From assembly GCF_002067135.1 (NCBI RefSeq), contig NZ_CP020105.1, positions 5,456,001 through 5,520,000 of the forward strand: a stretch of DNA of 64,000 bases, in the 5' to 3' direction. Within the stretch, counting starts at the first letter, position 1; each line of letters opens with the position of its first letter. Below the pieces are notes generated by a model. It was given only the letters and a program-made list of their open reading frames with translations. It was not told the DNA's origin and did no database searches. The translations under genes and the position numbers were made by a program. This DNA is from Spirosoma rigui (GTDB taxonomy: Bacteria > Bacteroidota > Bacteroidia > Cytophagales > Spirosomataceae). Shown piece by piece: positions 5,440-60,448 of this stretch.

Positions 5440-7287
5440 CTAGTCGAGGGCCAGAATCACGGCTGATTTGGCAGCTACCGATAAGGGCTGACTGAGCGGC
5501 TGGGTCTGGCCCGTCAGTACGTCGGTAGCCGTTTTCCTACCGGCCAGCACTTCGCCGTATTTAACCATGTCCAGCGTTTTAGCATCTGCCGATTTATTCA
5601 TGACCACCAGTACGCGCTGCGCGTCGGTATAGCGTACGTATACGTACAGACCCTCCCGGGCCGCAAAATGCTTGAGCTTACCCGTTTGCACAGCCTCGTT
5701 GGATTTGCGCCAGGTAAGCAGTTTTTTCAGAAACTCTTTGGCCGTCCGCTGCTGCTCCGTCAGTCCGATGCCCGTAAAGACACTGGTCGTATGGTCGGCC
5801 CAGCCGCCGGGCATCTCGCCCCGAATATCGTCGTGGCGGTCGCTGGTGGGGTTGGTCATCAGAATCTCGGTACCGTAGTACACCTGCGGAACGCCCCGGG
5901 TTGTGAGCAGGTGGATCATCCCCATTTTCCACAAGGCGACATCTTCGTGAATCTGCGTAAAAAAACGGCTCATGTCGTGGTTGTCGGCAAACGTGACCAG
6001 GTTGTCGGGGCGCTCGTACAGAAAATCCTGTGACAGCGTCTGGTAGATTTTGACCAGCCCCCGGTTGTACTGCCGGTCGTCTTCGTTGAGTGCTTCAACG
6101 AGGGCATTCTGCAGCGGAAAGTCGAACATACCGGGCATCGACGATACATACCCATTACGGTTTGTCTTGCCCTTTTGCCAGAACGCAATGAGCGCCGGAT
6201 TAAGCGACCACTCTTCGCCTACCATATTAAACGCCGGGTATTCCTGCATAACCCGCCGGGACCACTCGGCCATAAAGTCCTTATCTGGATACGGATAGGT
6301 ATCCATCCGAATCCCGCGCAGATCGGCATATTCGATCCACCAGAGAGTGTTCTGGATCAGGTAGGTTGCCAGCAGGGGGTTGCGCTGGTTGAGGTCAGGC
6401 ATAGTCGATACAAACCAACCGTCGGCATGTAGTTTTTTGTCGTACTCGGACGCGTGCGGGTCCTGGATGCTCTCCCGGGCGTGGCTCGTCATTTTTGGGT
6501 CACCCTGAAAGTTGAGCCAATCGTCGGTGGGCAGATCGCTCATCCACCAGTGCGACGAGCCACAGTGGTTCACGATCAGATCGATGATCAGTTTTATACC
6601 CCGCTTCTGCGCAGCTTTGGACAGGGCGCGGTAGTCTTCGTTGCTCCCGAAACGGGGGTCTATTTTGTAGAAATCAGTGCTGGCATACCCGTGATACGAA
6701 GCCGACGGCATGTTATTCTCCACCAGCGGATTAATCCAAAGGGCGGTAAAACCCATATCCTGCAGGTAGTCCAGGTGGTTGGCAATTCCCTGAATGTCGC
6801 CCCCGTGGCGGGCATCGCGGCCCGTTCGGTTGGCTTTATCGGGCATTCCGGCCACCACATCGTTGGCCGAATTTCCATTCGCAAAGCGGTCGGGCGTAAT
6901 CATGTACATGACATCGGCCGCCGTATACCCCTTTCGCTGGGCCGAGTTGGCCTCCCGGGCTTTGAGTTCGTAGGGATACGTCAGCACCGATTTACCGTCC
7001 TTCACGAACTGAATGGGAAACGTACCCGCTTTGGCGGCTGGGCTAATGACCAGATCGACGAACAGGTAGTTGGGGCTTTTAACGCGCGTGACTGTAGCGA
7101 CTGTGACGCCCGGATACATCAGTTTAGGCTGGGCCGAGCCAATATTTTTCTCATGAATCAACAACTGCAGGCGGGTATCTTTCATACCTACCCACCAGAA
7201 GGCGGGTTCAACACGCTGTGCGAACAGCGGGTACGTTATGAAAACAAGTACTAACGTAAGTAATGCAAAGCAACGTTTAATCATCAT
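5440..7287 (-). CDS. Secreted GH13 cyclomaltodextrinase/neopullulanase-like enzyme
   Basis: Cleaves alpha-1,4-glucans or cyclodextrins, probably in the periplasm. The 615-residue protein has a signal peptide ending at FAQ (residue 24), an N-terminal beta-sandwich like the cyclomaltodextrinase N domain (about 25-110), the GH13 barrel from about 120, and a C-terminal beta domain. Catalytic residues are visible: nucleophile Asp329 in GIRMDTYPYP, acid/base Glu358 in MVGEEWS, and Asp438 in FADNHDMSR. The calcium/substrate motif DLIVNHCG is present. It resembles SusA of Bacteroides, but no SusC/SusD genes are adjacent. A second, similar enzyme is encoded at 11398-13269. Confidence 0.92.
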   Translation of the reverse strand: MMIKRCFALLTLVLVFITYPLFAQRVEPAFWWVGMKDTRLQLLIHEKNIGSAQPKLMYPGVTVATVTRVKSPNYLFVDLVISPAAKAGTFPIQFVKDGKSVLTYPYELKAREANSAQRKGYTAADVMYMITPDRFANGNSANDVVAGMPDKANRTGRDARHGGDIQGIANHLDYLQDMGFTALWINPLVENNMPSASYHGYASTDFYKIDPRFGSNEDYRALSKAAQKRGIKLIIDLIVNHCGSSHWWMSDLPTDDWLNFQGDPKMTSHARESIQDPHASEYDKKLHADGWFVSTMPDLNQRNPLLATYLIQNTLWWIEYADLRGIRMDTYPYPDKDFMAEWSRRVMQEYPAFNMVGEEWSLNPALIAFWQKGKTNRNGYVSSMPGMFDFPLQNALVEALNEDDRQYNRGLVKIYQTLSQDFLYERPDNLVTFADNHDMSRFFTQIHEDVALWKMGMIHLLTTRGVPQVYYGTEILMTNPTSDRHDDIRGEMPGGWADHTTSVFTGIGLTEQQRTAKEFLKKLLTWRKSNEAVQTGKLKHFAAREGLYVYVRYTDAQRVLVVMNKSADAKTLDMVKYGEVLAGRKTATDVLTGQTQPLSQPLSVAAKSAVILALD

Positions 7288-9248: not shown

Positions 9249-10607
9249 TTACGCTTCCAGGCCGTATTCGGCCAGTTTGCGGTACAGCGTTGTCAAACCG
9301 ATGCCCAGCAGGCGGGCCGACTCGGTTTTGTTGCCACCCGTGTGGCGCAGTACCCGGCCAATATGCTGCCGTTCGAGCGTGGCCAGGTCGACAATGGCAT
9401 TGGGATCGGTAGAGACTATACCATCCTGCATCTCATAGGGTAACAGGTCGGGGGTTAGCTCGGTTACGCCATCTCTACCGGTATCCGACAAGATTACGGC
9501 TCGCTCAATTACGTTCTTCAGTTCGCGAATGTTACCCTTCCAGGGGTGCCGCTTCAGCTTCTGCACAAATCCCGGACTTAGCTGCACAACCCGCCGACCC
9601 ACTTTCCCGGCATCCTGCCGGGCAAACAGTTCGGCCAGTTCGGGAATGTCGTCGCGCCGGTCGCGCAGGGGCGGCAACTGAATGCTGAACACTGAAAGCC
9701 GGTAGTAGAGGTCCAGCCGGAAATGATTGGCGGTAGCTTCCGCTTCCAGACTCCGGTTGGTAGCCGCAATAACGCGCACGTCCGTACGGGTCGGTTTGGT
9801 GTCGCCCACGCGCAGAAACTCGTGGGTTTCCAGCACCCGGAGCAGTTTGGCTTGCAGGTCGAGGGGCATTTCGCCAATCTCGTCCAGGAAAATGGTGCCT
9901 TTGTCGGCTTCGGCAAACAAGCCTTTCTGATCGCGGCTGGCGCCCGTAAACGCCCCCGCCCGATGTCCGAACAACTCGCTTTCCAGAATATCTTTTCCCA
10001 GCGCTCCGCAGTTGATGGCCACAAACGGCCCTTTCCGGCGCAGACTGGCCGTATGGATGGCCTGCGCAAAAACTTCCTTTCCCGTACCCGTTTCGCCCGT
10101 CAGCAACACGGTCGTATCGGTTACCGCCACCCGACGGGCCAGCGCCACCGCCTGCTGAATGGCGGGGGAGTGACCGATAATACTCTCGAATCGATGCTGT
10201 TTGCCAACCTGCTCTTCCAGCTGCCGCACCCGGAATTGCAGGGTAGCTTTGTCAACCGCCCGGCTCACCAGAGGGATAATCCGGTCGTTGTCATCGCCTT
10301 TGGTGATGTAATCGAAAGCGCCATTCTGAATGGCCAGCACCCCATCGGCAATGGTTCCATAGGCCGTCAGGACGATGACTTCAGTAGCGGGAGCGAGCTG
10401 TTTAAACCGCGTGGTCAGTTCTACCCCGTTACCATCGGGCAGTTTAACATCGCAGATGATGACGTGGACCGTTTCCCGCTCCAGCGTTCTGAGGCCGGCA
10501 CGAGCATTCTCGGCTTCCAGGACGGTATAGCCTTCAAGCTGTAAAATCCGGGCCAGTAGCTGCCGAAGCCGGGATTCGTCGTCGATAAGAAGTAGCGTAG
10601 CAGCCAC
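9249..10607 (-). CDS. NtrC-family sigma-54-dependent response regulator
   Basis: A 452-residue activator with three domains: receiver (phospho-acceptor Asp53 in [11 protein letters not shown]), AAA+ sigma-54 interaction domain with Walker A GETGTGKE and the sigma-54 contact loop GAFTGA, and a Fis-type helix-turn-helix ([20 protein letters not shown]). The start is GTG 10607, five bases after the pgmB stop, suggesting translation coupled to pgmB. No histidine kinase gene is adjacent, so it is an orphan here. I saw no convincing -24/-12 site in the neighbouring intergenic regions, so its targets are unknown. Confidence 0.93.
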
Positions 10608-47064: not shown

Positions 47065-47634
47065 ACCCGGCTTATCGTAGCAAAAATCTCTTATTTACCA
47101 TAAACAACCAAAGGTAACATAACATAGTCTATTTGGCGTATAGATAAGGTGAAAATAAAGTCATTTCTGGTCGCTTACAGTTCCTGAAGGCGCTGTATCG
47201 GACAATTATACCAATTTTAGCAAACAATATATTATTCTACTTGAGTCAACATTGACCAAACGATCTATTGAAAATCAAGCGAGGAATACCGATCATATAT
47301 GAATTAATCGGCGAATATAATTTTACCGTAAAAAAGAATCACCAAAACAAGCCTACAGGAACGTCCAATCAATTTTGTTAAATATTGCTGTAAAAAAATG
47401 ATTAACAAATTACCTTTATTGATGTATTGTAAATTTGATTTGCTATTTTTGTCTACGATTCTTTACTAACAATAAGTAAAAAGGCATCCTTTACCAAGCC
47501 CATAGACTGACTGAATAATGTAAGTAGTACCTAAAACTAGTCCTTCGGTAGACCTAACACGTCAATTAAACTTATAATAGGCTCTATATAGTACTAGTTA
47601 AAAAAACAAATTATTGATAAACAACTTAATCTAC
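47065..47634. other. AT-rich leader region of the exopolysaccharide operon
   Basis: About 570 bp between the divergent barrel gene and the export operon, strongly AT-rich. No protein gene is convincing. It contains the putative promoter listed at 47419-47451 and would give an untranslated leader of about 180 bases, long enough for regulation, although I see no recognised riboswitch or RNA motif. Confidence 0.55.
47419..47451 (+). promoter_or_regulatory. Putative promoter of the exopolysaccharide operon
   Basis: TTG (47419-47421), 22-bp spacer and TATTTTTG (47444-47451) match the Bacteroidota consensus. It is the best match upstream of the operon. Confidence 0.45.
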
Positions 47635-48468
47635 ATGAATCTACCTATTATGCCATCTGATCGTACCCGTTACCTCTCTTTACTATTCGCTACACTACTG
47701 ACAGGTAGTCAGGTTTTGACAAGTTGTGTTCCCACCAAGCAGCTCGCTTATTTTCAGGGTGAACCTACCCGCATGGATACCCTGACGGTCGCTTCCCGCT
47801 ACGTACCAAAAATTCAGGCAGGCGACGTATTGTCCGTTCAGATCAGCAGTTTAAATCCAGAAGCTTCTTCGTTTTTTAACCCCTACGCAGCCTTAACCAT
47901 TGCCGACCGGGGTGGCACTCAGCAAAACCTGTTGAACAGTACCACGCCGTTGCCCGCTCAAAACGGGTATCTGGTCGACAACACCGGTGCCATTGAATTA
48001 CCTGTTATTGGTAAGATCAACGTAGCTGGTCAAACGGCTGGCGAAGTAAAAGAACGGCTGCGCGATTCACTGAAAGAGTACCTGAAAGAACCTACCGTAA
48101 ACATCCGTAACCTCAACTTCCGGATTTCGGTTATGGGCGAGGTGCTGCGCCCCTCCCTGTTCACAATTCCCAACGAGCAGATCACGCTGCTGGAAGCACT
48201 CAGCCTGTCGGGTGATGTAACCATCTTCGGTCGCCGGGACAACGTACTTCTGATCCGCGAAGAAAATGGCAAACGGACATTTGCCCGCGTTGATCTGACC
48301 CGCCGTGACCTGTTCACCTCACCCTATTATTATCTGCATCCAAACGATGTGGTGTACGTAGAACCAGGTAAAGCCCGGGCCGCTACAGCCGACCGTACCA
48401 ACCAGCTCTTACCGCTTTTCATCAGCGGGCTGTCGTTTCTGGCGGTCATTGCGTCGCGATTCCGTTAA
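47635..48468 (+). CDS. Wza-family polysaccharide export lipoprotein
   Basis: The outer-membrane export channel lipoprotein of a Wzx/Wzy-type exopolysaccharide system. About 277 residues from ATG 47635 (a further TTG lies upstream at 47614 and an ATG at 47650). The lipobox LTSC places the lipid-bearing cysteine at residue 31. The polysaccharide export domain is seen in QAGDVLSVQISSLNPEA, and SLBB-like parts follow (GYLVDNTGAIELPVIGKINVAG; FRISVMGEVLRPSLF). A C-terminal hydrophobic helix (FISGLSFLAVIASRF) is typical of Bacteroidota members. First gene of the operon, 30 bp before the kinase. Confidence 0.92.
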   Translation: MNLPIMPSDRTRYLSLLFATLLTGSQVLTSCVPTKQLAYFQGEPTRMDTLTVASRYVPKIQAGDVLSVQISSLNPEASSFFNPYAALTIADRGGTQQNLLNSTTPLPAQNGYLVDNTGAIELPVIGKINVAGQTAGEVKERLRDSLKEYLKEPTVNIRNLNFRISVMGEVLRPSLFTIPNEQITLLEALSLSGDVTIFGRRDNVLLIREENGKRTFARVDLTRRDLFTSPYYYLHPNDVVYVEPGKARAATADRTNQLLPLFISGLSFLAVIASRFR

Positions 48469-48498: not shown

Positions 48499-50841
48499 AT
48501 GTCAAGTCAGAACAACTACGCCTACGCACCCTACCAGGTGTATGAAGCCGAGAGCTCGCCCAACCTGCGGGTCATATTGATGCGCTACGCGCGGCATTGG
48601 AAGTGGTTTGTGTTATCACTGGTTTTGGCCGGGGCGGGTGCCTATGTCTTTTTCATGTTCCAGACACCCATCTATAAAGTACAAACCAGCCTGCTCATCA
48701 AGGATGACAAGAAAGGACTTAGCGAAGACAACATCCTGAAAGAGATGGACATCTTCGCCCCGAAGAAGGTCGTCGAAAATGAGATGGAAATCCTGAAATC
48801 CTACGCTCTGATGAACAAGGTTGTCGGTGAGCTAGGCCTGGATGTGAAGTACTATCAGAATACGGATTTTGGTAAACGGGAGATCTACGATGCCTCGCCA
48901 ATCCGGGTTATTGTTGAGCGGGCAACGCCATCGCTCTACGAAACAGAACTGGATATTACGGCTACGGGAGCTAAAACAGTACGTATCAATGATAAGATTT
49001 ATCCCGTCAACCAGAGCGTACAAACGCCCTATGGCCGGTTGCGCGTGTTTGCTAACAAACCCCTTCAAGTAGACAGTGAAATGGTGGTTGTTCAGGCACT
49101 ACCCCGTCAGGTAGCCGTTGATAAATACCTCAAAAATCTTACGGTTGAGACAACCAGTAAAGCCTCGACGGTACTACAGATGACACTTGAAGATGCCGTA
49201 CCTCGTAAGGGAGAAGCGGTCCTGAACAAGCTGATTACCGAATACAATCAGGCTGCCGTGGTCGACAAGAACATTGTGGCCTCGAACACCTTAAGTTTCA
49301 TCGAAGAGCGGCTCCGGCTGATTGCGGGTGAGTTGTCGACGGTTGAGAAAGGTGTCGAAAACTACAAATCGGCCGAGGGTATTACGGACCTGAGTTCACA
49401 AGCCCAGGTGTTCCTGGCTACGGTGAAGGAAAACGACGATCAACTCAATCAGACCAACATCAAGCTGGGTATGATCGAAGACATCGAACGCTACGTCAAC
49501 AGCCGTAGTGATGAGCGGGGCGTTGCGCCGGCAACACTCAGCGTAAGCGATCCCGTTCTGATTGGTCTGGTAGGCAAACTAAGCGAACTGGAGTTACAGC
49601 GTGACCAGCTTAGCCGGACAACTACGGCCAGCAACCCCATCCTGCAATCGCTGGACAGCCAGATCAAAGCAACCCGGACAAGTCTGACCGACAATATCAC
49701 CAACATGAAGCAATCGCTGATTGGTACCCGAATGAAGATGCGGGCTACCAACCGGCAGCTGGAAAGCCAGATTCGGACTATTCCACACAAGGAGCGGGCG
49801 CTGGTTAACATCACCCGTCAGCAGTCGATCAAAAACAACCTGTATACTTACCTGCTTGAAAAGCGGGAAGAGACAGCACTGTCCTACGCATCGACGGTGG
49901 CAGACAGCCGTACTATCGACCCCCCCCGGTCGGGAGCTGAGCCGGTAAAACCCGTGAAGGCTACCATCTTTCTGTTGTTCGGATTGCTGGGTCTGATGAT
50001 GCCTGTTGGCGTTATTGCTGCCCGTGACGTCTTAAACGACCGCGTAAGTCGTCGCTCAGATATTGAAGATGCATCACAGGTGCCCATTATGGGTGAAATT
50101 ATGGCCAGTCGAAACATCGATCCGCTGGTTATGGTATCAGGTAAGCGTTCCGTTATTGCTGAACAGATCCGTACCCTACGCACTAACCTACAGTTCCTGC
50201 GGTCGAATCCAACGGGTAGCCAGGTGGTCATGTTTACCTCGAGCATTAGTGGCGAGGGCAAATCGTTCCTGTCCCTGAATCTGGGTGCCAGCCTGGCGTT
50301 GGTTGACCGGCCAACGGTGATTCTGGAAATGGACTTACGAAAACCGAAGCTCCACTCCGTCCTCGATATGCCGAATACGGTGGGTTTGAGCAACTATCTG
50401 ATTCAGGAGGCTTCGCTGGACGATGTGCTGCAGCCGATTCCCGGTTTTCCAAACTACCATATCATTACCTGCGGTCCTATTCCACCGAATCCGGCCGAAT
50501 TATTGAGCAGCCCCCAACTCGAAAAACTATTTACGGAGCTACGCGAGCGGTTCGCTTACGTCATTGTCGACTCGCCACCCATCGGCCTGGTGACCGACGC
50601 GCAACTGATCGCTCCGCATGTTGATGCTACGATGTTCATGGTGCGTCACGACCACACGCCCAAAGCTTACCTGCGAATGATTGATAACCTGTACAAGGAA
50701 AATCGATTCAACCGGCTCAACCTGGTGCTCAATGGCGTAGGGGGTGGAGAATCCTACCAGTATGGCTACAGCTATAACTACGGTGGGTACTACGAAGAAG
50801 CCAACAAACCGGCTAAACCCGCCATTCGCAAAATACGCTAG
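48499..50841 (+). CDS. Wzc-type polysaccharide co-polymerase and tyrosine kinase
   Basis: A 780-residue inner-membrane protein controlling chain length and export. Two membrane helices flank a large periplasmic Wzz-like domain with coiled coil (about 35-55 and 490-510). The cytoplasmic BY-kinase domain has Walker A SSISGEGKSFLSLNL, Walker A' VILEMDLRKPKL and Walker B YVIVDSPPIG. The tail is tyrosine-rich (SYQYGYSYNYGGYYEE), the autophosphorylation cluster. The CpsB-type phosphatase at 62739 is its likely counterpart. Confidence 0.95.
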   Translation: MSSQNNYAYAPYQVYEAESSPNLRVILMRYARHWKWFVLSLVLAGAGAYVFFMFQTPIYKVQTSLLIKDDKKGLSEDNILKEMDIFAPKKVVENEMEILKSYALMNKVVGELGLDVKYYQNTDFGKREIYDASPIRVIVERATPSLYETELDITATGAKTVRINDKIYPVNQSVQTPYGRLRVFANKPLQVDSEMVVVQALPRQVAVDKYLKNLTVETTSKASTVLQMTLEDAVPRKGEAVLNKLITEYNQAAVVDKNIVASNTLSFIEERLRLIAGELSTVEKGVENYKSAEGITDLSSQAQVFLATVKENDDQLNQTNIKLGMIEDIERYVNSRSDERGVAPATLSVSDPVLIGLVGKLSELELQRDQLSRTTTASNPILQSLDSQIKATRTSLTDNITNMKQSLIGTRMKMRATNRQLESQIRTIPHKERALVNITRQQSIKNNLYTYLLEKREETALSYASTVADSRTIDPPRSGAEPVKPVKATIFLLFGLLGLMMPVGVIAARDVLNDRVSRRSDIEDASQVPIMGEIMASRNIDPLVMVSGKRSVIAEQIRTLRTNLQFLRSNPTGSQVVMFTSSISGEGKSFLSLNLGASLALVDRPTVILEMDLRKPKLHSVLDMPNTVGLSNYLIQEASLDDVLQPIPGFPNYHIITCGPIPPNPAELLSSPQLEKLFTELRERFAYVIVDSPPIGLVTDAQLIAPHVDATMFMVRHDHTPKAYLRMIDNLYKENRFNRLNLVLNGVGGGESYQYGYSYNYGGYYEEANKPAKPAIRKIR

Positions 50842-50966: not shown

Positions 50967-51653
50967 ATGCTAAACTTGTCTCTTCCATCGCTCAATGAGC
51001 AAGCTGTTTTTAGCGAATCGTATTCTGCTCAAACAAGCCATTTCGCAATACCGGCACCCAAACATAGTCTGAAGAAACGCCTGTTTGATATTGTGATTGC
51101 GTCTATCGCTATCCTGTCCATTCTAATCTGGTTTATCCCACTGGTAGGACTTTTGATCCGGCTTACTTCCCCCGGTCCGGTTCTGTTCGTGCAGCTTCGC
51201 ACCGGGCGCAATGGGCGACCCTTCCGCTGCCTGAAATTCCGGACAATGACGTACGACCGGAATGCCGAATTCCGCCAGGCGACTAAAAACGATACCCGCG
51301 TAACCAGAATTGGTCAGTTTCTGCGCAAGACAAATCTGGATGAATTACCACAAGTGTTCAACGTATTACTTGGTACGATGAGCATCGTGGGCCCGCGCCC
51401 CCATCCTATACAGCTCGACGCACAGCACTGGCATACCCTGCCCCTGTATCCAAGCCGTTACGCTGTTAAGCCAGGGATTACCGGTCTGGCACAGGTACGC
51501 GGCCACCGGGGTGAAACGGCCCGGCTGATCGATATGGAGCATCGGGTCCGGCTGGATCGCCTGTACATCCAAAAGAGAACCTTGCTTCTTGACATGCGCA
51601 TCTGCTGGTGGACATTCACGAGTATGGTTAAAGGAGACAAAAAGGCTTTCTAA
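50967..51653 (+). CDS. Initiating sugar phosphotransferase (undecaprenyl-phosphate)
   Basis: A 228-residue membrane enzyme of the bacterial sugar transferase family that loads the first sugar-phosphate onto undecaprenyl phosphate. It is the short form: one membrane hairpin (KKRLFDIVIASIAILSILIWF), then the catalytic domain with RTGRNGRPFRCLKFRTM, RKTNLDELPQVFNVL and GPRPHP. It begins 125 bp after the kinase. The sugar it carries is not predictable by eye. Confidence 0.93.
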   Translation: MLNLSLPSLNEQAVFSESYSAQTSHFAIPAPKHSLKKRLFDIVIASIAILSILIWFIPLVGLLIRLTSPGPVLFVQLRTGRNGRPFRCLKFRTMTYDRNAEFRQATKNDTRVTRIGQFLRKTNLDELPQVFNVLLGTMSIVGPRPHPIQLDAQHWHTLPLYPSRYAVKPGITGLAQVRGHRGETARLIDMEHRVRLDRLYIQKRTLLLDMRICWWTFTSMVKGDKKAF

Positions 51654-51745: not shown

Positions 51746-52969
51746 ATGAGGTCATACTTAAAAAAAGGGGGAATTGCTGTAGCGGATCAAATCCTGTTTT
51801 CGGGCAGCAATTTTCTCCTGAATATATTTTTAGTTAAGCTACTAACTACTGCTGATTACGGCTTATTTGGAAGTCTATACTCAATCTATTTATTGACCTG
51901 CATAAGCTTCATCGCTATATTCCTGGAGCCTTATATTTACTATAAAAACACACTAAAAGACACCTTACGTTACACGAGTTTACACGCTGGTCTCGCTAAT
52001 GCTTTACTCGTACTGTCTTTATTATTTACAATTTCAGGATTTTTAGTACAGCAGTACCTACTGGTTTATATTGCTTACACGTTTTCAACTTGTGTCATAT
52101 ACTTCTATAAAAGGCACTTTGTATCAATCCTAGCGCCTAAATACTCACTATTTATCAGTTTAAATTACTTCATATTAATAAGCGTGGGTTTATTGTGTTT
52201 AAATTATTTAATAGAAAAAACAATACTGAACGCTTTTTTTGTACTTAACATAGCATCTATCCTTAGTGTACTCCCGAGTATACTGAGCAATAGTCAATTT
52301 AAAACATTTTTATATAAAACACATAACATAGTAGAATTTTCTAGAATATTAAAAAACCAAAAAAAATATTCATTTCACTGTTTTACGTCTGGCGTTCTAT
52401 CATGGGTCCCAAACAACATTTACTTTATACTGTTACCGCTATTTTACTCAAGAGAAATCAACGCATTATTCAAAGCATTACAAAATATTAACTTACCGAT
52501 TACCCACCTGAATATTGCCATAGTTAGCTTACTTGTACCAATATTCATGAAATCCAGCAAACCAGAGAAACTAATAAAAACCATATCAACCTTATTTACT
52601 GTGCTACCATTACTATACTTATCAATAATATTGTTCTCTCTGAAATACATTGAGCATTTTATTTATAACGACAAATATAACCTGACACCACTTGTCGTAT
52701 CTATATTCTTATTATCCATTATTCCTGAAATAATTGCGAACATATACAAAGCTTATTTTAGATCAATTGAAAGACCTGAACTCGTTACAAAAATTAACCT
52801 TGGCAATGCCATTATTGCAATCACCTGCTCTTATTTTGTTTACCGCTTCGGAATCAGTGGCATATTAACGTCATATATCATTGTTAATACATTCAATCTC
52901 ATAAGTTCTTTATACGCTTATTCAAATGAATCAAAAAAAATCCTTCAAAATAACTACAAGATGATATAA
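51746..52969 (+). CDS. Polysaccharide flippase (Wzx-like)
   Basis: A 407-residue protein with about 12 membrane helices, matching the oligosaccharide flippase/MATE-like pattern (start YLKKGGIAVADQILFSGSNF, typical of polysaccharide transporters). It would move lipid-linked repeat units across the inner membrane. The coding sequence is strongly AT-rich compared with its upstream neighbours, as wzx genes often are, pointing to horizontal exchange. Confidence 0.85.
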   Translation: MRSYLKKGGIAVADQILFSGSNFLLNIFLVKLLTTADYGLFGSLYSIYLLTCISFIAIFLEPYIYYKNTLKDTLRYTSLHAGLANALLVLSLLFTISGFLVQQYLLVYIAYTFSTCVIYFYKRHFVSILAPKYSLFISLNYFILISVGLLCLNYLIEKTILNAFFVLNIASILSVLPSILSNSQFKTFLYKTHNIVEFSRILKNQKKYSFHCFTSGVLSWVPNNIYFILLPLFYSREINALFKALQNINLPITHLNIAIVSLLVPIFMKSSKPEKLIKTISTLFTVLPLLYLSIILFSLKYIEHFIYNDKYNLTPLVVSIFLLSIIPEIIANIYKAYFRSIERPELVTKINLGNAIIAITCSYFVYRFGISGILTSYIIVNTFNLISSLYAYSNESKKILQNNYKMI

Positions 52970-53027: not shown

Positions 53028-54473
53028 ATGGAAGCAACTATCACCAATCCAATTAATGTACGAAATGTAGTTCCAATAAGTCTTCTCCAGCAGGACACAT
53101 TTAGTATAATGACATATCAGATGTACGTTTTCTCTCTGATACTAACATGGTTTCCATCAAAAATCCTTTCATATGGTTCACCATATATTTTGATGATTTT
53201 TGTCTTTGTGGTTTACAATAACTATGAACTCCTGTTTAATTATATAAAAACAACAATCATAATAATACTTTTTTTGGGAGTTAATTATATTATCAGAGAA
53301 AAATACATCTTTTCAAATGGAGTTTTAACTATCGTAACATACGGCCCGTTTATTCTTCTATGGGCTATGTCAAATAAAAGCATTTCTAAAGTATATATAA
53401 GGAAAATAATTCGTGTTACTTATTTTTTTGTTTTCTTTCAGAGTTCCATCGGTATAGTACAATTCGCAATTGCATATATAAAATTTGGAGGTTATAGCGT
53501 AGATATGGGGGATTTTATACAGGGTTCTATTGTCCCATTATCTTTTAACTTAGAAGGAGACAGAGGTATTGGCAACGCATACTTCGTGATTAATATCTTA
53601 ATAATGACATTGTTCCTTCTTGTAGATGAGAAGAAGGATAGAAAATCATATTTAATTATAACACTCGGCTGTATAACGGTAATACTTGCGGGAGTTCACC
53701 ATGCTTTAATTTCTCTCTTTTTAGGATTATTTCTCGCTCTGTGCATAGCTGAATTTACTAAAGCATTAAAATATAGTTTTGCTATTATTCCAGCAATACT
53801 CGCAGCTGGCACTATATTTTATCTATTAAACCCCAATAACGTATACTTATATTCTCATTATTTCAATTTATACGCTACAGGTGAATCCTTTAAAACTTTA
53901 GCAATGAAAAAAGCTATTATAGATTTATACCAAGATCATCCTGATATAAGCGTTCTGGGAACGGGCCTCGGCCAATTCTCAAGTAGAGCTGGATTAATAG
54001 CTTCTGGAACATACCTTGGCGGTTTAGACGAAAACAGAAGTATTCCTTTTTTTCCAATTTCACAATCTGAGTATTTTAAGAATTATGCATTTGATATATA
54101 TTACTCGATGAAGATGGATAAGAGCACCGTACATGGAGCGGCTAGTAGAACTTTCTTTTCTTTGATGTCAATATACGTTGAATTAGGCATAGCTGTTTCT
54201 ATCATTATTGTATTCTATATAATACAGAAAATTAGAAGCTTAAAAACAAGATATCTATTATTCAACAATTACAATTTAAACTACGAGAAAAATATAGTCA
54301 TTATCATAATAGCCACAATATTATTTTTTATTTTCATTTCTTTTTTTGAAAACTATTTAGAAATGAGTCAAGCCACATTAACATGCTTTATATTAATAAA
54401 AATTTTTTACAATAAAATAAGCCAACCTATAAATAAAACGATAATCGAAAAACAAACAGCAAAATATTTATGA
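53028..54473 (+). CDS. O-antigen/EPS polymerase-like membrane protein (Wzy-like)
   Basis: A 481-residue protein with about 11 membrane helices and a large extracytoplasmic loop (about 285-375; containing SVLGTGLGQFSSRAG, a motif like the G-x-G-x-G of Wzy/ligase proteins). It would polymerise repeat units on the periplasmic side. Very AT-rich, like the flippase gene before it. It overlaps the next ATG by four bases (ATGA at 54470). Assignment rests on topology, length and position, since Wzy proteins share little sequence. Confidence 0.75.
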   Translation: MEATITNPINVRNVVPISLLQQDTFSIMTYQMYVFSLILTWFPSKILSYGSPYILMIFVFVVYNNYELLFNYIKTTIIIILFLGVNYIIREKYIFSNGVLTIVTYGPFILLWAMSNKSISKVYIRKIIRVTYFFVFFQSSIGIVQFAIAYIKFGGYSVDMGDFIQGSIVPLSFNLEGDRGIGNAYFVINILIMTLFLLVDEKKDRKSYLIITLGCITVILAGVHHALISLFLGLFLALCIAEFTKALKYSFAIIPAILAAGTIFYLLNPNNVYLYSHYFNLYATGESFKTLAMKKAIIDLYQDHPDISVLGTGLGQFSSRAGLIASGTYLGGLDENRSIPFFPISQSEYFKNYAFDIYYSMKMDKSTVHGAASRTFFSLMSIYVELGIAVSIIIVFYIIQKIRSLKTRYLLFNNYNLNYEKNIVIIIIATILFFIFISFFENYLEMSQATLTCFILIKIFYNKISQPINKTIIEKQTAKYL

Positions 54474-55657
54474 GCAAATACTTTATTCTGGGTCACTTTG
54501 GTGGTTTTAACACTGGAGATGAAGCAATGCTTGGTGGTTTTTTAAACCTTGTCCCAAAAACCAGCGCTGTTTCCATTAAATACAAGAATGGAGTTAATGT
54601 GCATTGGGGTGATAATGTGACATTGTTTCATGGCAGCTACACCGATTTTGTGGCACCAATTGGACCGGGTGATACGCTGGTGCTCTGTGGCGGCACTCAC
54701 TTTCATGACGACTACAGTCCCATCCGACTATTGCGCCACTGGCTTTATCTGGCACGCATCAATTATCTGTTCGATCAGGCTAAACGCAAAGGAGCCCAGA
54801 CACAATGTATCGGCAATGGATTTGGCCCGATCAATGAAGGCATTACGGGTTGGTTGACGCGGCAGTTTATAAAGCTATGTGATGTAGTCACCGTACGGGA
54901 CAAAAACTCAGCCCGGGCTTTGGCCGCTCTGGACTGCAAAGCTGACCTGGTCCACCCGGATCTGGCCATGTTGCTGTATAAACCTGACCGGCGGGTCGTC
55001 AAGGAAAATATAATCGGGGTTTCCCTAACGTCACTCACGTCACAAAGCGCCGACACTATTTCTGATGACGTATTGGTAAACTCGATTGCGGACGAACTCA
55101 CAACTTTCTCGGCCACCAATCCTGATGCCCTGGTACGCTTGTTTGTCATCCGGTCCGGTAACCGCGAAAGTGATGCACCGATCATGAACCAATTGCACCA
55201 GCAATTACAAAGCAATGGTGTCCAATCGGAAGTCTACGAGTTTACCAACGATCTGAGCGAACTGGTCGAGCAGATGATTCCCTGTCGGGTATTTCTGGCA
55301 TCACGGTTCCACAGCGCCGTGTTGGGAGCCGTAACACAGAATAAACTCATTATCCTCTCCTACCACAAAAAATTAGTTTCGTTGGCGGAGGAAATGACTA
55401 TGGATCGTCGGTACGTGATCGATTTACAACAACCGACGGCCGCTACTAAAATCAACCACTTAGCCGATACTATCGGTGAGCTTTATTCTGCTAACCAGCT
55501 TAATTACTCATTCCCGGAAACTGAGATTTTACAGTTAGGTGAACATGTTCGTACTATTTATGAAGAAGGTCTTGATTTTCGTGTTCACGCCAACTTACGG
55601 CGGGCCCCACAACCAGGTGAACCGTTTGTGCCAGCCGCTACGCGAGCAGCACTATGA
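54470..55657 (+). CDS. Polysaccharide pyruvyl transferase family protein
   Basis: A 395-residue cytoplasmic enzyme that would add a pyruvate ketal to a sugar of the repeat unit, giving negative charge. Family features: FILGHFGGFNTGDEAMLGG at the N-terminus, GDTLVLCGGTHFHDDY, GNGFGPINEG, VTVRDKNSARAL, ASRFHSAVLGAVTQNKLIIL. The C-terminal 33 residues (after HVRTIYEEG) look unlike the family, and that part overlaps the next gene by 98 bases in another frame, so the stop may have moved. GC content returns to normal within this gene. Confidence 0.88.
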   Translation: MSKYFILGHFGGFNTGDEAMLGGFLNLVPKTSAVSIKYKNGVNVHWGDNVTLFHGSYTDFVAPIGPGDTLVLCGGTHFHDDYSPIRLLRHWLYLARINYLFDQAKRKGAQTQCIGNGFGPINEGITGWLTRQFIKLCDVVTVRDKNSARALAALDCKADLVHPDLAMLLYKPDRRVVKENIIGVSLTSLTSQSADTISDDVLVNSIADELTTFSATNPDALVRLFVIRSGNRESDAPIMNQLHQQLQSNGVQSEVYEFTNDLSELVEQMIPCRVFLASRFHSAVLGAVTQNKLIILSYHKKLVSLAEEMTMDRRYVIDLQQPTAATKINHLADTIGELYSANQLNYSFPETEILQLGEHVRTIYEEGLDFRVHANLRRAPQPGEPFVPAATRAAL

Positions 55658-56732
55658 GTCGGTTCTATGCGTCCACCAGGATTTTGAACCCAAGTGGGAA
55701 CATCATTTTCATCAGTTAGGTGTTCGTGTTCTTAAATACGACTTTAAACGACTTCGATTCAATTCATTCGTAAAAAACAATTATCAGTACCTCTCCACTT
55801 TTTTCAAGGATGTCAGAGCCCTTGAGACGCTGATCAGAGAAGAGAAGCCGGATGTTGTTCAGGTATGTGGGTTACTGAATATTCAGGCAGTGCTGGCGGC
55901 CAAACGGGCGGGCATTCCGGTAGTATGGCAACTACTCAGCACATTCTCGCCACCTCCTATGCGCTTTGTTTACGGGCAGCTAGTGAAACGTTGGGCTAAC
56001 TCCATTATGAGTACAGGATCGCTAGTAGCCCACAAACACTACCTGCAGGGCAATACACTGGAACGTACCTTTCCTTTTTACCCACCCGTAGAAACGTCCC
56101 GTTTTGTCGCTGCTACGGACAAAAAGTTGGCAGCCCGCCAGTTCTTCGCTATTCCGGAAGATGCTATCGTCATTGGCACTGTCGGAAACCGAAACCGCCA
56201 GAAGTCGCATGATCAGTTTGTCCAGATCGCGAAGCAGGTATTAAGCCGGACGAAGAAGGACGTGTATTTTGTCATTGTGGGTGCTATCACACCCTCGTAC
56301 CAGCCTACTTACGCAACGCTGGTCGAGCAGTTTATTAAGGACAACAAACTGGAAAATCGCATTAAGTTGTTCCAGTCCACCATTCCCGTTGACACTATTC
56401 TATCAGGATTCGACGCGTTCCTGCTTTCATCCATGGCCGAGGGAGTACCTACTGTACTTTTAGAAGCTATGTCGATTGGGGTCCCGATTGTATCGACTGA
56501 TGTGGGAGCCATACCGGAAATAGTTAGAGAGAGTGTGAATGGCTTCCTGTATCGGTTTGGTCAAAACGAGAAAGCAGCCGAGCTGATCCTTCAACTTATC
56601 GATGACCAAAAACTCAGGCAGGCTATGTCACGCACGAATGCTGGCGACGCCAAAACCAAGTTCGATACGGAGATCTGTTCCGAAGTTCACAAGAAAGCAT
56701 ATGATTTCGCGCTGGCTCACCAGGCTGCCTGA
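55560..56732 (+). CDS. GT4-family glycosyltransferase
   Basis: A 390-residue GT-B glycosyltransferase adding a sugar to the lipid-linked repeat unit. The N-terminal motif KKVLIFVFTPTYGGPHNQV requires the start at ATG 55560; a GTG 21 bp earlier is less likely. The C-terminal E-x7-E region is SSMAEGVPTVLLEAMSIGVPIVST, preceded by VGNRNRQKSHD. The first 98 bases overlap the pyruvyltransferase gene. It is the last gene of the plus-strand operon. Confidence 0.9.
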   Translation: MKKVLIFVFTPTYGGPHNQVNRLCQPLREQHYESVLCVHQDFEPKWEHHFHQLGVRVLKYDFKRLRFNSFVKNNYQYLSTFFKDVRALETLIREEKPDVVQVCGLLNIQAVLAAKRAGIPVVWQLLSTFSPPPMRFVYGQLVKRWANSIMSTGSLVAHKHYLQGNTLERTFPFYPPVETSRFVAATDKKLAARQFFAIPEDAIVIGTVGNRNRQKSHDQFVQIAKQVLSRTKKDVYFVIVGAITPSYQPTYATLVEQFIKDNKLENRIKLFQSTIPVDTILSGFDAFLLSSMAEGVPTVLLEAMSIGVPIVSTDVGAIPEIVRESVNGFLYRFGQNEKAAELILQLIDDQKLRQAMSRTNAGDAKTKFDTEICSEVHKKAYDFALAHQAA

Positions 56733-56748
56733 CATCCAGATAGCCTCT

Positions 56749-56802
56749 ACATGAAACGGGCGCTCCGGGAATAAATTTATTCCCGGAGCGCCCGTTTCAT
56801 GT
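56749..56802. terminator. Perfect 54-bp palindrome, bidirectional terminator
   Basis: Both halves (56749-56775 and 56776-56802) are exact reverse complements without spacer, giving a 27-bp hairpin with a GC-rich middle and AT-rich tip (ATAAATTTAT). It sits 17 bp after the GT4 stop and 16 bp after the convergent WecG stop, so it serves both operons. Flanking T-runs are poor. Confidence 0.85.
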
Positions 56803-56817
56803 AAGGATAAGCAAAAA

Positions 56818-57594
56818 TTATCCAGCGTTCGAAACCCGTCGGGTTTTGCCGGGTGTAATCAGTTCCTTCAGGTTGTAGAATATAAACAGCGGTACAATTT
56901 CCATGTATCGTTTATAAAGTCGCTTGGGTTCCATCAACAAGCGAAAAAACCATTCCATGGAAAGCTGCTGCATCCAGGCTGGCGCCTGCTGTACCTTATC
57001 TGTGTGAAAATCAAATGCAGCGCCAACGGTAACGATAAAATGAACCGAGGTATACTTTTCTAATTGTTTGGCAAACCGTTCCTGCTTGGGCGTGCTTAGG
57101 CCAATCCATACGATGTTTGCTCCCGATTTATTGATCTGATCACCCAGCGCCCTAAATTCGTCATCGGTCAGCGCCCGAAACGGTGGGCAGAACGTACCGA
57201 CAACGTTGTGATTGGCAAACTTTTTGCCAACTGCAACTTTCAACTCGTCGGCAACACCTTCTTTACCACCACACAGGAAGTGCTTGATGGTCGTAGTAGC
57301 GCTGTCCTCAAATACACGTTTAAAAAAATCAGGACCGTAGCAGCGATTCATTGCTGTTGCTCCTTTCATACGGCCAACCCATACGCCAGGCATACCATCG
57401 GGCAGATTCCAGTAAAAAGAGTCCAGGACCTGTTGAAAATCGTGTTCTTTTATCGCTGTAATCATGCCGTGAGCTCCCGTGGCGCTTACGCATTTATTTT
57501 CTCGTAAACTTGACGGGGTGCTTTGCTCGATAATTTCACTAACGGCTGTTTCCAGGCCAGCGTCGTATAATTCAGTTTTTAATACCCGTACCAT
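56818..57594 (-). CDS. WecG/TagA/CpsF family glycosyltransferase
   Basis: A 258-residue GT26 enzyme. Motifs: GMPGVWVGRMKGATAMNRCYGPDFF, FLCGGKEGVADELK, VVGTFCPPFRALTDDE, IVWIGLSTPKQERFA and VGAAFDFHTDKVQQAPAWMQ, with the final MEWFFRLLMEPKRLYKRY. In E. coli WecG adds ManNAcA to the second position of the lipid-linked chain; here it likely adds an early sugar of the polymer. It lies 11 bp after the cupin gene, third in the epimerase operon. Confidence 0.93.
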   Translation of the reverse strand: MVRVLKTELYDAGLETAVSEIIEQSTPSSLRENKCVSATGAHGMITAIKEHDFQQVLDSFYWNLPDGMPGVWVGRMKGATAMNRCYGPDFFKRVFEDSATTTIKHFLCGGKEGVADELKVAVGKKFANHNVVGTFCPPFRALTDDEFRALGDQINKSGANIVWIGLSTPKQERFAKQLEKYTSVHFIVTVGAAFDFHTDKVQQAPAWMQQLSMEWFFRLLMEPKRLYKRYMEIVPLFIFYNLKELITPGKTRRVSNAG

Positions 57595-57605
57595 CGTATA
57601 GTAGA

Positions 57606-57950
57606 TTACTCTGTAGCAATACCGAAATAGATATATTGTAAAGGATTTTCACCTACTGCCTCCAGCCGGTGTTTGACACCGGCAGGTATTCGAACAAATA
57701 CTCCGTTTTCCAGCGGTATCTGTTTGTCGCCCACCGTATAAATGCCCTTTCCACTCAGGAAGAAGAAGACCTCTTCCATGGTAGCATGACTGTGCAGTTC
57801 ACAAAAATCAGTCGTGCGAAACGTGCCATAGGCTACCTGCGTTAACGCGGTGGGCGTGTCGGCATTCCGCAGAAAGACCTTTTTGGAGCCTTGCAGGTGG
57901 GCAGTAACCTCACCTGCAAGGCCGTCAAGCGTTGCTGTTATCGTATCCAT
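57606..57950 (-). CDS. Cupin-fold protein, possible sugar or nucleotide-sugar modifier
   Basis: A 114-residue single-domain cupin. Motif 1 has HSHATMEEVFFFLSGKG (metal-binding His/His/Glu) and motif 2 has VRIPAGVKHRLEAVGENPL. The ATG at 57950 overlaps the epimerase TAA by one base (TAATG), fixing the start and implying coupled translation. Its function is unknown. Position between an epimerase and a glycosyltransferase suggests a role in sugar-nucleotide modification. Confidence 0.82.
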   Translation of the reverse strand: MDTITATLDGLAGEVTAHLQGSKKVFLRNADTPTALTQVAYGTFRTTDFCELHSHATMEEVFFFLSGKGIYTVGDKQIPLENGVFVRIPAGVKHRLEAVGENPLQYIYFGIATE

Positions 57951-58939
57951 TAAACTGTTTCCAGTTCTTCTACTTCTACTTTTTTCTGGATTTGCTCCGA
58001 GATCCAATCGTAGGTTTTCTGAACGCCAACCTGTAGCGGAACCGACGGTGCCCAGCCCAACTTCTGCTGGATAAGGTGGTTATCAGAATTCCGACCCCGT
58101 ACACCCGTTGGACCTTCGATATTTTTGATCGAAATGTTCTTACCCGACAGATCGATGACCATCCGGGCGAAATCGTTGAGCGATATCATCTCCTCTGAAC
58201 CGATGTTGACCGGCCCCGAGAAATCAGACTCCATCAGCCGGCGAATACCCTCAACGCATTCATCAACGATCAGGAATGAACGGGTTTGCTTGCCATCACC
58301 CCAGATTTCGATAACACCGCCTTCATCGGCCATAGCGACCTTACGGCATACAGCAGCCGGTGCTTTTTCACGACCACCTTCCCACGTGCCCTGGGGGCCA
58401 AAAATGTTGTGGAAACGCGCGATACGCACCTCAATACCGTGGTTCCGCTGGTAGGTAAGGTACAGCCGCTCAGAGAAGAGCTTCTCCCAACCATATTCGC
58501 TATCAGGCGCTGCTGGATAGGCAGAATCTTCCGAGCATTTTGGATTCTCGGGATCGAGCTGGTTGTACTCGGGGTACATACAGGCCGATGACGAATAGAA
58601 TATACGTTTTACACCTTTGTTCTTGGCTTCGTCCAGGACATTCAGGTTGCACAAAACCGAATTGTGCATGATGGCCGCGTCGTTTGTACCCGTAAATACG
58701 AACCCTGCACCACCCATATCAGCCGCTAGCTGATAAATCTCGTCTAAATCACTTGTAACTACTTTAGCTGAAACGGTAGGATCGGTCAAGTCGCCGATAA
58801 TGAACTCGTCGGCGTTGGCATTGCCATATTCATTATGTTTTATATCCACGCCACGCACCCAATAACCTTCTGACTTTAAGCGGTTTACCAGATGACCGCC
58901 AATGAATCCACCGGCTCCACAAACAAGTGCCTTCTTCAT
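57950..58939 (-). CDS. GDP-mannose 3,5-epimerase-like enzyme
   Basis: A 329-residue extended SDR protein. Cofactor motif GAGGFIGG (8-15); SDR Tyr149-xxx-Lys153 in YGWEK; FHNIFGPQGTWEGG and REKAPAAVCRK (Lys192) match the plant GDP-mannose 3,5-epimerase, whose catalytic Cys and Lys correspond to Cys120 (SSSACMYPE) and Lys192. The plant enzyme makes GDP-L-galactose and GDP-L-gulose. Here it probably supplies such a sugar for the exopolysaccharide. First gene of a three-gene operon with cupin and WecG. Confidence 0.88.
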   Translation of the reverse strand: MKKALVCGAGGFIGGHLVNRLKSEGYWVRGVDIKHNEYGNANADEFIIGDLTDPTVSAKVVTSDLDEIYQLAADMGGAGFVFTGTNDAAIMHNSVLCNLNVLDEAKNKGVKRIFYSSSACMYPEYNQLDPENPKCSEDSAYPAAPDSEYGWEKLFSERLYLTYQRNHGIEVRIARFHNIFGPQGTWEGGREKAPAAVCRKVAMADEGGVIEIWGDGKQTRSFLIVDECVEGIRRLMESDFSGPVNIGSEEMISLNDFARMVIDLSGKNISIKNIEGPTGVRGRNSDNHLIQQKLGWAPSVPLQVGVQKTYDWISEQIQKKVEVEELETV

Positions 58940-59263: not shown

Positions 59264-60448
59264 TTAATTTATTGCACCATCCATCAATCCATAAAAGGCT
59301 GGCTTTTTATTGTAGCTCCCATCAAAAATGCATGGTGCATCGTTCTTTTTCTTCTGCGCAACGATCCAGCTGTCCGCATCGCTAAAATCCCATAGCGTAA
59401 TACCATATTGTAACCGAGTAGGTACCAATTGCTTATAGGCAACGACTACTGCCTTATACTTTGCACGCTGAGTATCGAGCAATTGTTGGTTAATAATCAA
59501 ATTAGCATCATTCGTTGGGTTGACCGCTATATCGAGTTCTGAGATATGAATCAGTAAGCCAGTAGCTGTTAGCTTTAGAAGAGAATTGCGGATACCAGCA
59601 TCGGAGGTATTAATATTGATATGCATCTGCGAACCAACACCATTGATAGGGATACCACTCTTCTTAAAATCTTCAACCATCGAAACTACGGCATCTAGCT
59701 TTGCTTGAGAGTTTTCCATCGAAAAGTCATTATAGAATAATAATGCGTTAGGATCAGCTTCATGTGCCCACTTGAAGCATTGCTTAACGAAAGTTAAATA
59801 TGCTTCATCGCTAGTATACAACTTTCTGAAGGGTGTTTGATCAATCTTTCCTTGGCTGGTGAAAATTTCGTTAAAGACATCCCAGCCTTGAATTTTTCCT
59901 TTCTGACGCCCAACTATAGTCTGAATGTGCTTCTTTATCATCAGCTCAAAGTCACTCGTATTACCTTTAAATTGAAGCATCCATTCAGGAGCACCTGTGT
60001 GAAAAACTAAGCAATGCCCGTGTAAACGTACTGGGTTAGTCTCAGCCCATTTGGCCCAAAAATCAAGTTCCTGAAAATTGAATACGCCTTGAGAAGTTTC
60101 AATGCTCATATAAGCATGAACTGTCTTTGAATCAAACTGCGTTTTAAAAACTTCATAACCTTTAGCCTTCTTGGTTATCCAAGACCCTGGTGTTGCTCCG
60201 ATTGGGAAAGTTGCTACTGACTTTAAAGTGCTGTTACTGTCAATAACTGCAGTAGCCCGGGTGCTGGCCGTGTAAGCCGTTTCCGTCACGCTATCCGGAT
60301 TCACTGAGTCTGGGCTGCAGCTTGTCAGGTTAAGAAGAAGGGAGAATAACGTAGCAACCATGATAGCTCGCGCCGTACGAAGGGTAGTTACAAAGTACGA
60401 ATTTTGTGTGTTGTTATTGTTACCCTTGGTTGCAGTGAAAGTTGCCAT
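59264..60448 (-). CDS. GH10 endo-xylanase-like lipoprotein in the EPS locus
   Basis: A 394-residue GH10 enzyme that cleaves beta-1,4-xylan-like chains. Acid/base Glu194 is in WDVFNEIF, nucleophile Glu304 in HISELDIAV; HGHCLVFH and the late ITLWDFSDADSWI complete the fold. Before the lipobox LTSC (Cys44) lies an unusually long polar N-terminus (MATFTATKGNNNNTQNS), so the true start may be a later Met such as residue 30. It is AT-rich compared with most genes here. Its place among exopolysaccharide genes suggests it trims the secreted polymer. Confidence 0.88.
   Translation of the reverse strand: MATFTATKGNNNNTQNSYFVTTLRTARAIMVATLFSLLLNLTSCSPDSVNPDSVTETAYTASTRATAVIDSNSTLKSVATFPIGATPGSWITKKAKGYEVFKTQFDSKTVHAYMSIETSQGVFNFQELDFWAKWAETNPVRLHGHCLVFHTGAPEWMLQFKGNTSDFELMIKKHIQTIVGRQKGKIQGWDVFNEIFTSQGKIDQTPFRKLYTSDEAYLTFVKQCFKWAHEADPNALLFYNDFSMENSQAKLDAVVSMVEDFKKSGIPINGVGSQMHININTSDAGIRNSLLKLTATGLLIHISELDIAVNPTNDANLIINQQLLDTQRAKYKAVVVAYKQLVPTRLQYGITLWDFSDADSWIVAQKKKNDAPCIFDGSYNKKPAFYGLMDGAIN

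Follow-up and report, generated by a model that had tools for sequence, protein, structure and literature searches.

Three adjacent genes on the minus strand of the Spirosoma rigui genome were analysed within a stretch of 64 000 nt (NZ_CP020105.1, positions 5 456 001 to 5 520 000), called here the window; coordinates refer to the window unless another locus or contig is named. The genes encode a predicted GDP-mannose 3,5-epimerase (GME) of the short-chain dehydrogenase/reductase (SDR) type, with 329 amino acids (57950-58939), a single-domain cupin of 114 amino acids (57606-57950) and a GT26 (WecG/TagA/CpsF) glycosyltransferase of 258 amino acids (56818-57594). Our best explanation, to which we give a probability of about 55%, is that the three genes make up one allelic module of an exopolysaccharide (EPS) locus, with GME and GT26 making and transferring an L-sugar and the cupin acting as a metal enzyme on the same GDP-sugar branch. 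The part that concerns GME and GT26 can be put forward with good confidence on the sequence evidence; for the cupin, the likeliest role is that of an epimerase working beside the SDR protein, like the zinc cupin domain of CapF, and this is a tentative guess by analogy.

In the mechanism that we propose, GME would oxidise GDP-mannose, epimerise it at C3 and C5 and re-reduce it, yielding GDP-L-galactose and some GDP-L-gulose, as its residues and homology indicate. The transferase would then move the L-hexose, or a derivative of it, onto a lipid-linked sugar started by WcaJ; here the sorting of GT26 alleles and the mechanism of the family are our guides. A polymer with L-galactose or L-gulose would follow from the identity of GME and its place in an EPS locus.

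A preliminary description of this DNA had placed the three genes where the open reading frames (ORFs) do put them, and had noticed their tight packing. Indeed, the ATG of the cupin at 57950 overlaps the stop of GME as TAATG (a longer cupin ORF begins at an earlier TTG), and GT26 starts 11 bases past the cupin stop.

Identity of the epimerase

The best PDB match of the SDR protein is GME of Arabidopsis (2c59, E-value 1.6e-103, residues 4-320). The window protein has the SDR glycine motif GAGGFIG at residues 8-14 and the Ser118/Tyr149/Lys153 triad. Cys120 and Lys192 align with C145 and K217 of the Arabidopsis enzyme, as the preliminary description had proposed for the catalytic Cys and Lys; Asn178, Arg220 and Arg283 are kept as well. 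Thus, the Cys acid (Cys120), the Lys base (Lys192) and the Arg that acidifies the Cys (Arg283) are all present, with the roles of the Arabidopsis residues taken from PMC8787198. The eight tested positions are conserved in all 39 aligned GME proteins; one more locus, L086, was left out of this alignment as no ORF was obtained from it.

Two other assignments of the SDR protein were tried and rejected. GDP-fucose synthase has a His base and a Lys where GME has the Lys base and an Arg (PMC8787198), so Lys192 and Arg283 rule this enzyme out. A UDP-sugar epimerase is ruled out by the residues and by the gap in E-value that separates the GME match (1e-103) from the family ranked next in the PDB (1e-32). 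The prediction of a GDP-mannose 3,5-epimerase is supported by every residue test made. A 608-aa frame in locus L073, which looked like a GME fusion, was judged to be an artefact of an open frame extending into the upstream GT26 region.

Supply of GDP-mannose in S. rigui is plausible: a single type I phosphomannose isomerase is encoded, and there is one match to the GDP-mannose pyrophosphorylase helix family.

The preliminary description had also called the enzyme plant-like. This holds in so far as the best match is from Arabidopsis, but the likeness is not distinctive: a characterised GME from a bacterium, Methylacidiphilum fumariolicum, has been on record since 2019 (PMC6678494), and at E-value 1e-80 GME is found in 22 of 395 genomes of the phylum, S. 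rigui included. All tested catalytic and binding residues of the plant and Methylacidiphilum enzymes (EC 5.1.3.18) are shared by the window protein; unlike both of them, it is part of an EPS locus, in a module with GT26 and a cupin. The authors who characterised the Methylacidiphilum enzyme connected its gene with lipopolysaccharide, on account of a glycosyltransferase close by and of further genes (PMC6678494).

Distribution of the three-gene block

With the same threshold for GME, we found the gene in 13 of 36 genomes of the genus (15 loci, S. rigui included); the cupin (E-value 1e-8) was present in exactly the same 13 genomes (Fisher p 4e-10, kinship ignored). Three of the genomes without GME are only 71-82% complete. 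The cupin adjoins GME at every one of the 15 loci and GT26 lies in the block at 14, which bears out the coupling of the three genes suggested in the preliminary description. A search for the block in other genomes, also proposed there, showed that within the genus it recurs with two arrangements of the genes, GT26-GME-cupin at 11 loci and GME-cupin-GT26, as in the window, at three. The block is thus real and conserved. S. rigui itself carries a second GME, 85% identical to the first, at G000:C1:4691902; it belongs to a second EPS locus with the order Wza-Wzc-WcaJ-GT26-GME-cupin-flippase.

The one genus locus without GT26 (L038) is the second GME-cupin pair of Spirosoma profusum; no homologues of the Wza, Wzc, WcaJ or GT26 of the window were found in the 20 kb around it.

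In wider samples the cupin was detected in six of the 395 phylum genomes (E-value 1e-9), and a cupin profile (E-value 1e-10) gave matches in the family (15 of 150 genomes) and in the order to which genome G406 belongs (5 of 295). Outside the genus, GME stands beside the cupin in Larkinella soli (G462, locus L141), in G488 and G487 of the same family and in the Balneolaceae genome G148 (L142). Four loci (L040, L071, L073 and L077) combine GME with a GT26 more than 50% identical to that of the window and have no cupin of the family in the stretch examined; among the 22 phylum loci only L072 has one in the stretch examined by motif and profile scan. The cupin label on the GME tree needs at least three changes; on this tree, therefore, the GME-cupin pairing has been gained or lost more than once.

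The GME proteins of L071 and L072 are 80% identical to that of the window and come from genomes of the same phylum, one of them Balneolaceae, a pattern that suggests gene transfer.

GT26 alleles and the presence of GME

The transferase matches PF03808 with 164.2 bits (cut-off 27.4), the family that it shares with TagA, WecG and CpsF (GT26, GT-E fold). Its Asp66 falls in the alignment column of Asp65, which is the catalytic base in TagA, whereas Thr37 and Asn39 of the TagA donor/acceptor pocket are replaced by Ala38 and Gly40. The donor would be a GDP-L-hexose, as opposed to the UDP-ManNAc of TagA.

Seven genus genomes without GME have a GT26 that is 60-67% identical to the window protein. It is set in a skeleton Wza-Wzc-WcaJ-GT26-flippase with nothing between GT26 and flippase (in L129 these two share one long open frame). 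In a tree of 27 rows the seven GME-less GT26 proteins form one clade (support 96/91). Among the genes of the skeleton compared, GT26 alone tracks the presence of GME: the monophyly of the seven GME-less loci against 12 loci with GME is rejected by Wza (p 0.005), Wzc (p 4e-12), WcaJ (p 0.017) and flippase (p 1e-133). This five-gene comparison was made without the four loci of window type, and in the 27-row comparison L169 and L073 yielded no WcaJ. The test of WcaJ and GT26 followed a pattern already visible in their trees; for Wzc, Wza and flippase the groups had been chosen before the trees were inspected. In turn, GT26 rejects the grouping of L035, L127 and L128 that is given by WcaJ and Wzc (p 8e-5). 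Since GT26 sorts by the presence of GME and the other four genes do not, the transferase appears to be coupled to the epimerase; in our reading, the three genes of the block travel as a single allele.

Three GT26 alignment columns (40, 70 and 232) fully separate 16 proteins from loci with GME (14 from the genus and two others) from the seven without. At position 40 the former have Gly and the latter Asp; the equivalent Asn39 of TagA was modelled next to the acceptor sugar (PMC6493773). Gly40 is also present in the GT26 of all four cupin-less GME loci named above.

One could propose instead that GT26 has the general task of second transferase for this EPS, that the L-sugar is added by some other transferase and that GME and cupin merely adjoin. 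The seven genus genomes with GT26 in the same EPS skeleton and no GME speak for this view, and xanthan synthesis offers a parallel in GumM, a second transferase of GT26 type. Still, the GT26 of those genomes is a different allele, and no such sorting is seen in the other four genes of the skeleton; moreover, GT26 stays with GME through the change in gene order within the genus and in the four cupin-less loci outside it. We regard a general transferase as a doubtful alternative, albeit one to be kept in mind.

A family of cupins near GDP-sugar genes

The window cupin matches PF07883 with 51.8 bits. In an alignment of 26 cupins (12 of the 15 from the genus, with L029, L031 and L033 left out, and 14 others) 11 residues are invariant: T16, H18, G21, K23, Q38, H53, H55, E60, G67, H94 and G110. 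We take H53, H55, E60 and H94 to be the usual cupin metal ligands; the protein is thus probably a metal-binding cupin with an HxH...E...H barrel, and T16, H18, G21, K23, Q38 and the other invariant residues that are not ligands suggest a substrate pocket. The family is apparently uncharacterised; WbuC, a cupin of O-antigen loci, may be a parallel to it.

The confident structure model (pLDDT 94.9) resembles a number of small metal cupins: TM1287, TM1459, KdgF, the cupin domain of CapF and the phosphomannose isomerase of Thermococcus. As the function of the cupin cannot be read from its fold alone, we turned to gene neighbourhoods. Fifteen distinct loci with the cupin were collected outside the genus from the phylum, family and order samples, from plasmids and from a narrow peptide-pattern scan (12 loci confirmed, no census). 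At 12 of the 15 the cupin lies among GDP-sugar or GT26 genes. Besides the four neighbours of GME given above, three loci have the order SDR-cupin-GT26 (G159, G526 and G599, with Fcl and GMD following in G526), two have cupin-GT26-GMD-Fcl (G406 and Phocaeicola L145), one has cupin-GT26 (Mediterranea L143), and in two the cupin and a type I phosphomannose isomerase form a fusion protein (G867, where GMD and Fcl follow, and G687). The products of GME and those of GMD with Fcl share the L-galacto shape.

In the SDR proteins of G159, G526 and G599 the Cys and Arg of GME are kept and Gln stands at the position of the Lys base; among PDB entries, GME comes closest to the one from G159, the only one tested (E-value 1e-42). 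A GME-like SDR with Gln for the Lys base is a candidate single-site GDP-sugar epimerase. The genes of this GME-like clade lie at L132:6397-7392, L163:7182-8246 and L164:9139-10134, followed by cupin and then GT26 in three of three loci.

Two further features of these loci were recorded. Mediterranea L143 has two closely similar GT26 genes (6353-7090 and 9443-10189); the cupin immediately precedes one of them. In the two Bacteroidales fusions (L161:1501-2922, with GMD and Fcl following, and L162:421-1788) the cupin is N-terminal to the isomerase, and Pfam reports Cupin_2, PMI_typeI_cat and MPI_cupin_dom.

The plasmid search returned six records with one true member of the family, from Segatella. 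Among the five rhizobial plasmid matches, the one examined (Mesorhizobium) has no T-x-H-x-x-G-x-K signature.

The family adjoins GMD and Fcl as well as GME-like SDR genes and is fused to phosphomannose isomerase; judged by this context, the role of the cupin is not specific to GME. Nor is the cupin needed by every pair of GME and GT26, as the four cupin-less loci demonstrate.

Weighing the proposed module

Several observations weigh against the reading of the three genes as one functional module. The cupin fold is found in proteins of many unrelated functions. The GME and GMD/Fcl pathways work without a cupin; the purified Methylacidiphilum GME is active by itself (PMC6678494). In structural comparison the Thermococcus phosphomannose isomerase and KdgF match the window cupin as well as or better than CapF does, and three of the 15 loci outside the genus have the cupin among unrelated genes (G449, G492 and the Segatella plasmid, where no sugar genes are nearby). 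As to the transferase, the clade of GME-less GT26 has support of only 73/93 in the narrower set of 19 rows, and GT26 does not reject the grouping of L037, L125 and L126 given by Wzc (p 0.087). Positions 70 and 232 vary in the four cupin-less loci outside the genus (Thr, Gly, Ala and Ala at position 70), and two GT26 proteins near GME, at 40% identity, have no Gly40 (Ser in L041, Asn in L086). Besides, the Wzc and flippase trees conflict, with L127 and L128 placed beside L035 in one and beside L024 and L039 in the other; to judge by this disagreement, recombination is common in the EPS locus. The sorting of GT26 alleles could be hitch-hiking, GT26 being in the same block as GME. We consider hitch-hiking a fair alternative, weakened by the altered gene order in the loci of window type.

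Possible roles of the cupin

Within the proposed module, the role suggested by CapF has the best, though still tentative, claim. In CapF of the Staphylococcus capsule, an SDR domain is accompanied by a zinc cupin domain, and the latter epimerises a nucleotide sugar (PMC5393024). The window cupin is 26% identical to this cupin domain (TMq 0.70, Foldseek); the domain is absent from the best 50 VIA-align entries. In CapF the two parts are in one chain and the SDR is a reductase, while the window has two separate overlapping genes and the SDR protein is a predicted epimerase. The substrate of CapF is a UDP-sugar, in contrast with the GDP-sugar predicted for the window pair. Spelled out in full, the analogy would make the cupin a free-standing CapF-like metal epimerase for GDP-sugars which shares both epimerisations with the SDR protein, steers the product of GME among L-galactose, L-gulose and altrose, and epimerises where the SDR with Gln (L132, L163 and L164) cannot; in such detail we hold it to be unlikely.

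The cupin might otherwise be a small phosphomannose isomerase, or another hexose-phosphate isomerase, that raises the GDP-mannose supply of the module. This possibility draws on the two fusions with type I phosphomannose isomerase (L161 and L162), and on the fold and size of the window cupin, which are close to those of the single-domain Thermococcus enzyme (7zvy, Z 15.7; also 7zvm), although identity is 12-13% over the aligned part and S. rigui has its type I isomerase already. Most sugar contexts of the cupin derive from GDP-mannose. When eight cupin-bearing genomes outside the genus were tested, G148 and G526 gave no match to the type I isomerase. G148 has just one match to the type II family, which falls short of the cut-off, so the cupin could fill the step there. 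In G526, on the other hand, two small proteins are above the cut-off of the type II family (C12:416194-416487, which is L186, and C25:18449-18673). Both genomes with the fusion have two type I isomerases each, hence the step is already filled, and each of the 28 genus genomes tested (out of 36) has one, cupin-bearing and cupin-less alike. For the window cupin itself, no match to the Pfam profiles of type I or type II isomerase, MannoseP_isomer (PF01050) included, was obtained at E-value 0.001; two relatives match PF01050 just below its cut-off. On balance, we find a role in GDP-mannose supply possible and rather doubtful.

It is also conceivable that the cupin alters the finished GDP-L-hexose (its pyranose or furanose form, or its anomer), or binds it and so pulls the GME equilibrium toward the product for GT26. 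We know of no cupin that alters or binds a finished GDP-L-hexose in this manner, though the literature was not searched for one. Such a pull would have something to act on, with some 80% of GDP-mannose left by GME at equilibrium (PMC6678494), and the cupin shares a block with GT26 at 8 of the 15 loci outside the genus and at 14 of the 15 within it. The existence of pairs of GME and GT26 without a cupin speaks against this role, which we regard as improbable. Finally, use of GME in the style of vitamin C synthesis, feeding the metabolism of free L-galactose with no polymer made, is very improbable: the enzyme family is that of the plant pathway, but both GME copies of S. rigui are in EPS loci.

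Flanking genes

The neighbours on the plus strand look like an EPS locus of Wzx/Wzy type. A Wza-like export protein (47614-48468) and a Wzc-like tyrosine kinase (48499-50841), both named by eye from their ORFs, are followed by a WcaJ-type undecaprenyl-phosphate sugar-phosphate transferase (50967-51653; PF02397 above the cut-off, NCBIfam TIGR03023 below it), which would start the repeat unit. Homologues of Wza and Wzc are in identical order at the second EPS locus of the genome. Next come two membrane proteins with no Pfam match, named by eye as flippase-looking (51746-52969) and polymerase-looking (53028-54473), then a polysaccharide pyruvyl transferase (54470-55657, PF04230) and a GT4 glycosyltransferase (55566-56732, PF00534, its start chosen inside a longer ORF). 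Between the convergent GT4 and GT26 genes there is a perfect palindrome of 56 bases (56748-56803), noticed by eye, which probably ends the three-gene block as a two-way terminator.

A gene of the GH10 xylanase family (59264-60448 in the window) lies within about 6 kb of GME in all four loci of window type (the window, L027, L028 and L169). It is possibly a hydrolase for the polymer.

Significance

Bacterial GME itself is not new. In the open-licence literature we found no description of the GME-cupin-GT26 module, which is not proof that there is none, and nothing that combines GDP-L-galactose with a cupin and exopolysaccharide, or with capsular polysaccharide and a gene cluster. What the present analysis adds is a likely place for a bacterial GME in EPS synthesis, together with a named candidate transferase, and a genus that offers a natural comparison of the presence and absence of GME at one locus. 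It also brings to light a cupin family that has apparently not been described before; its signature looks catalytic, and the genes that accompany it point to the chemistry of GDP-sugars. If the CapF-like reading of the cupin were true, there would be a split route to GDP-L-sugars, bearing on the existence of single-site 3- or 5-epimerases, which has been raised as a question (PMC8787198). And if the cupin alters the products of the epimerase, the pair could be a tool for making scarce L-sugars.

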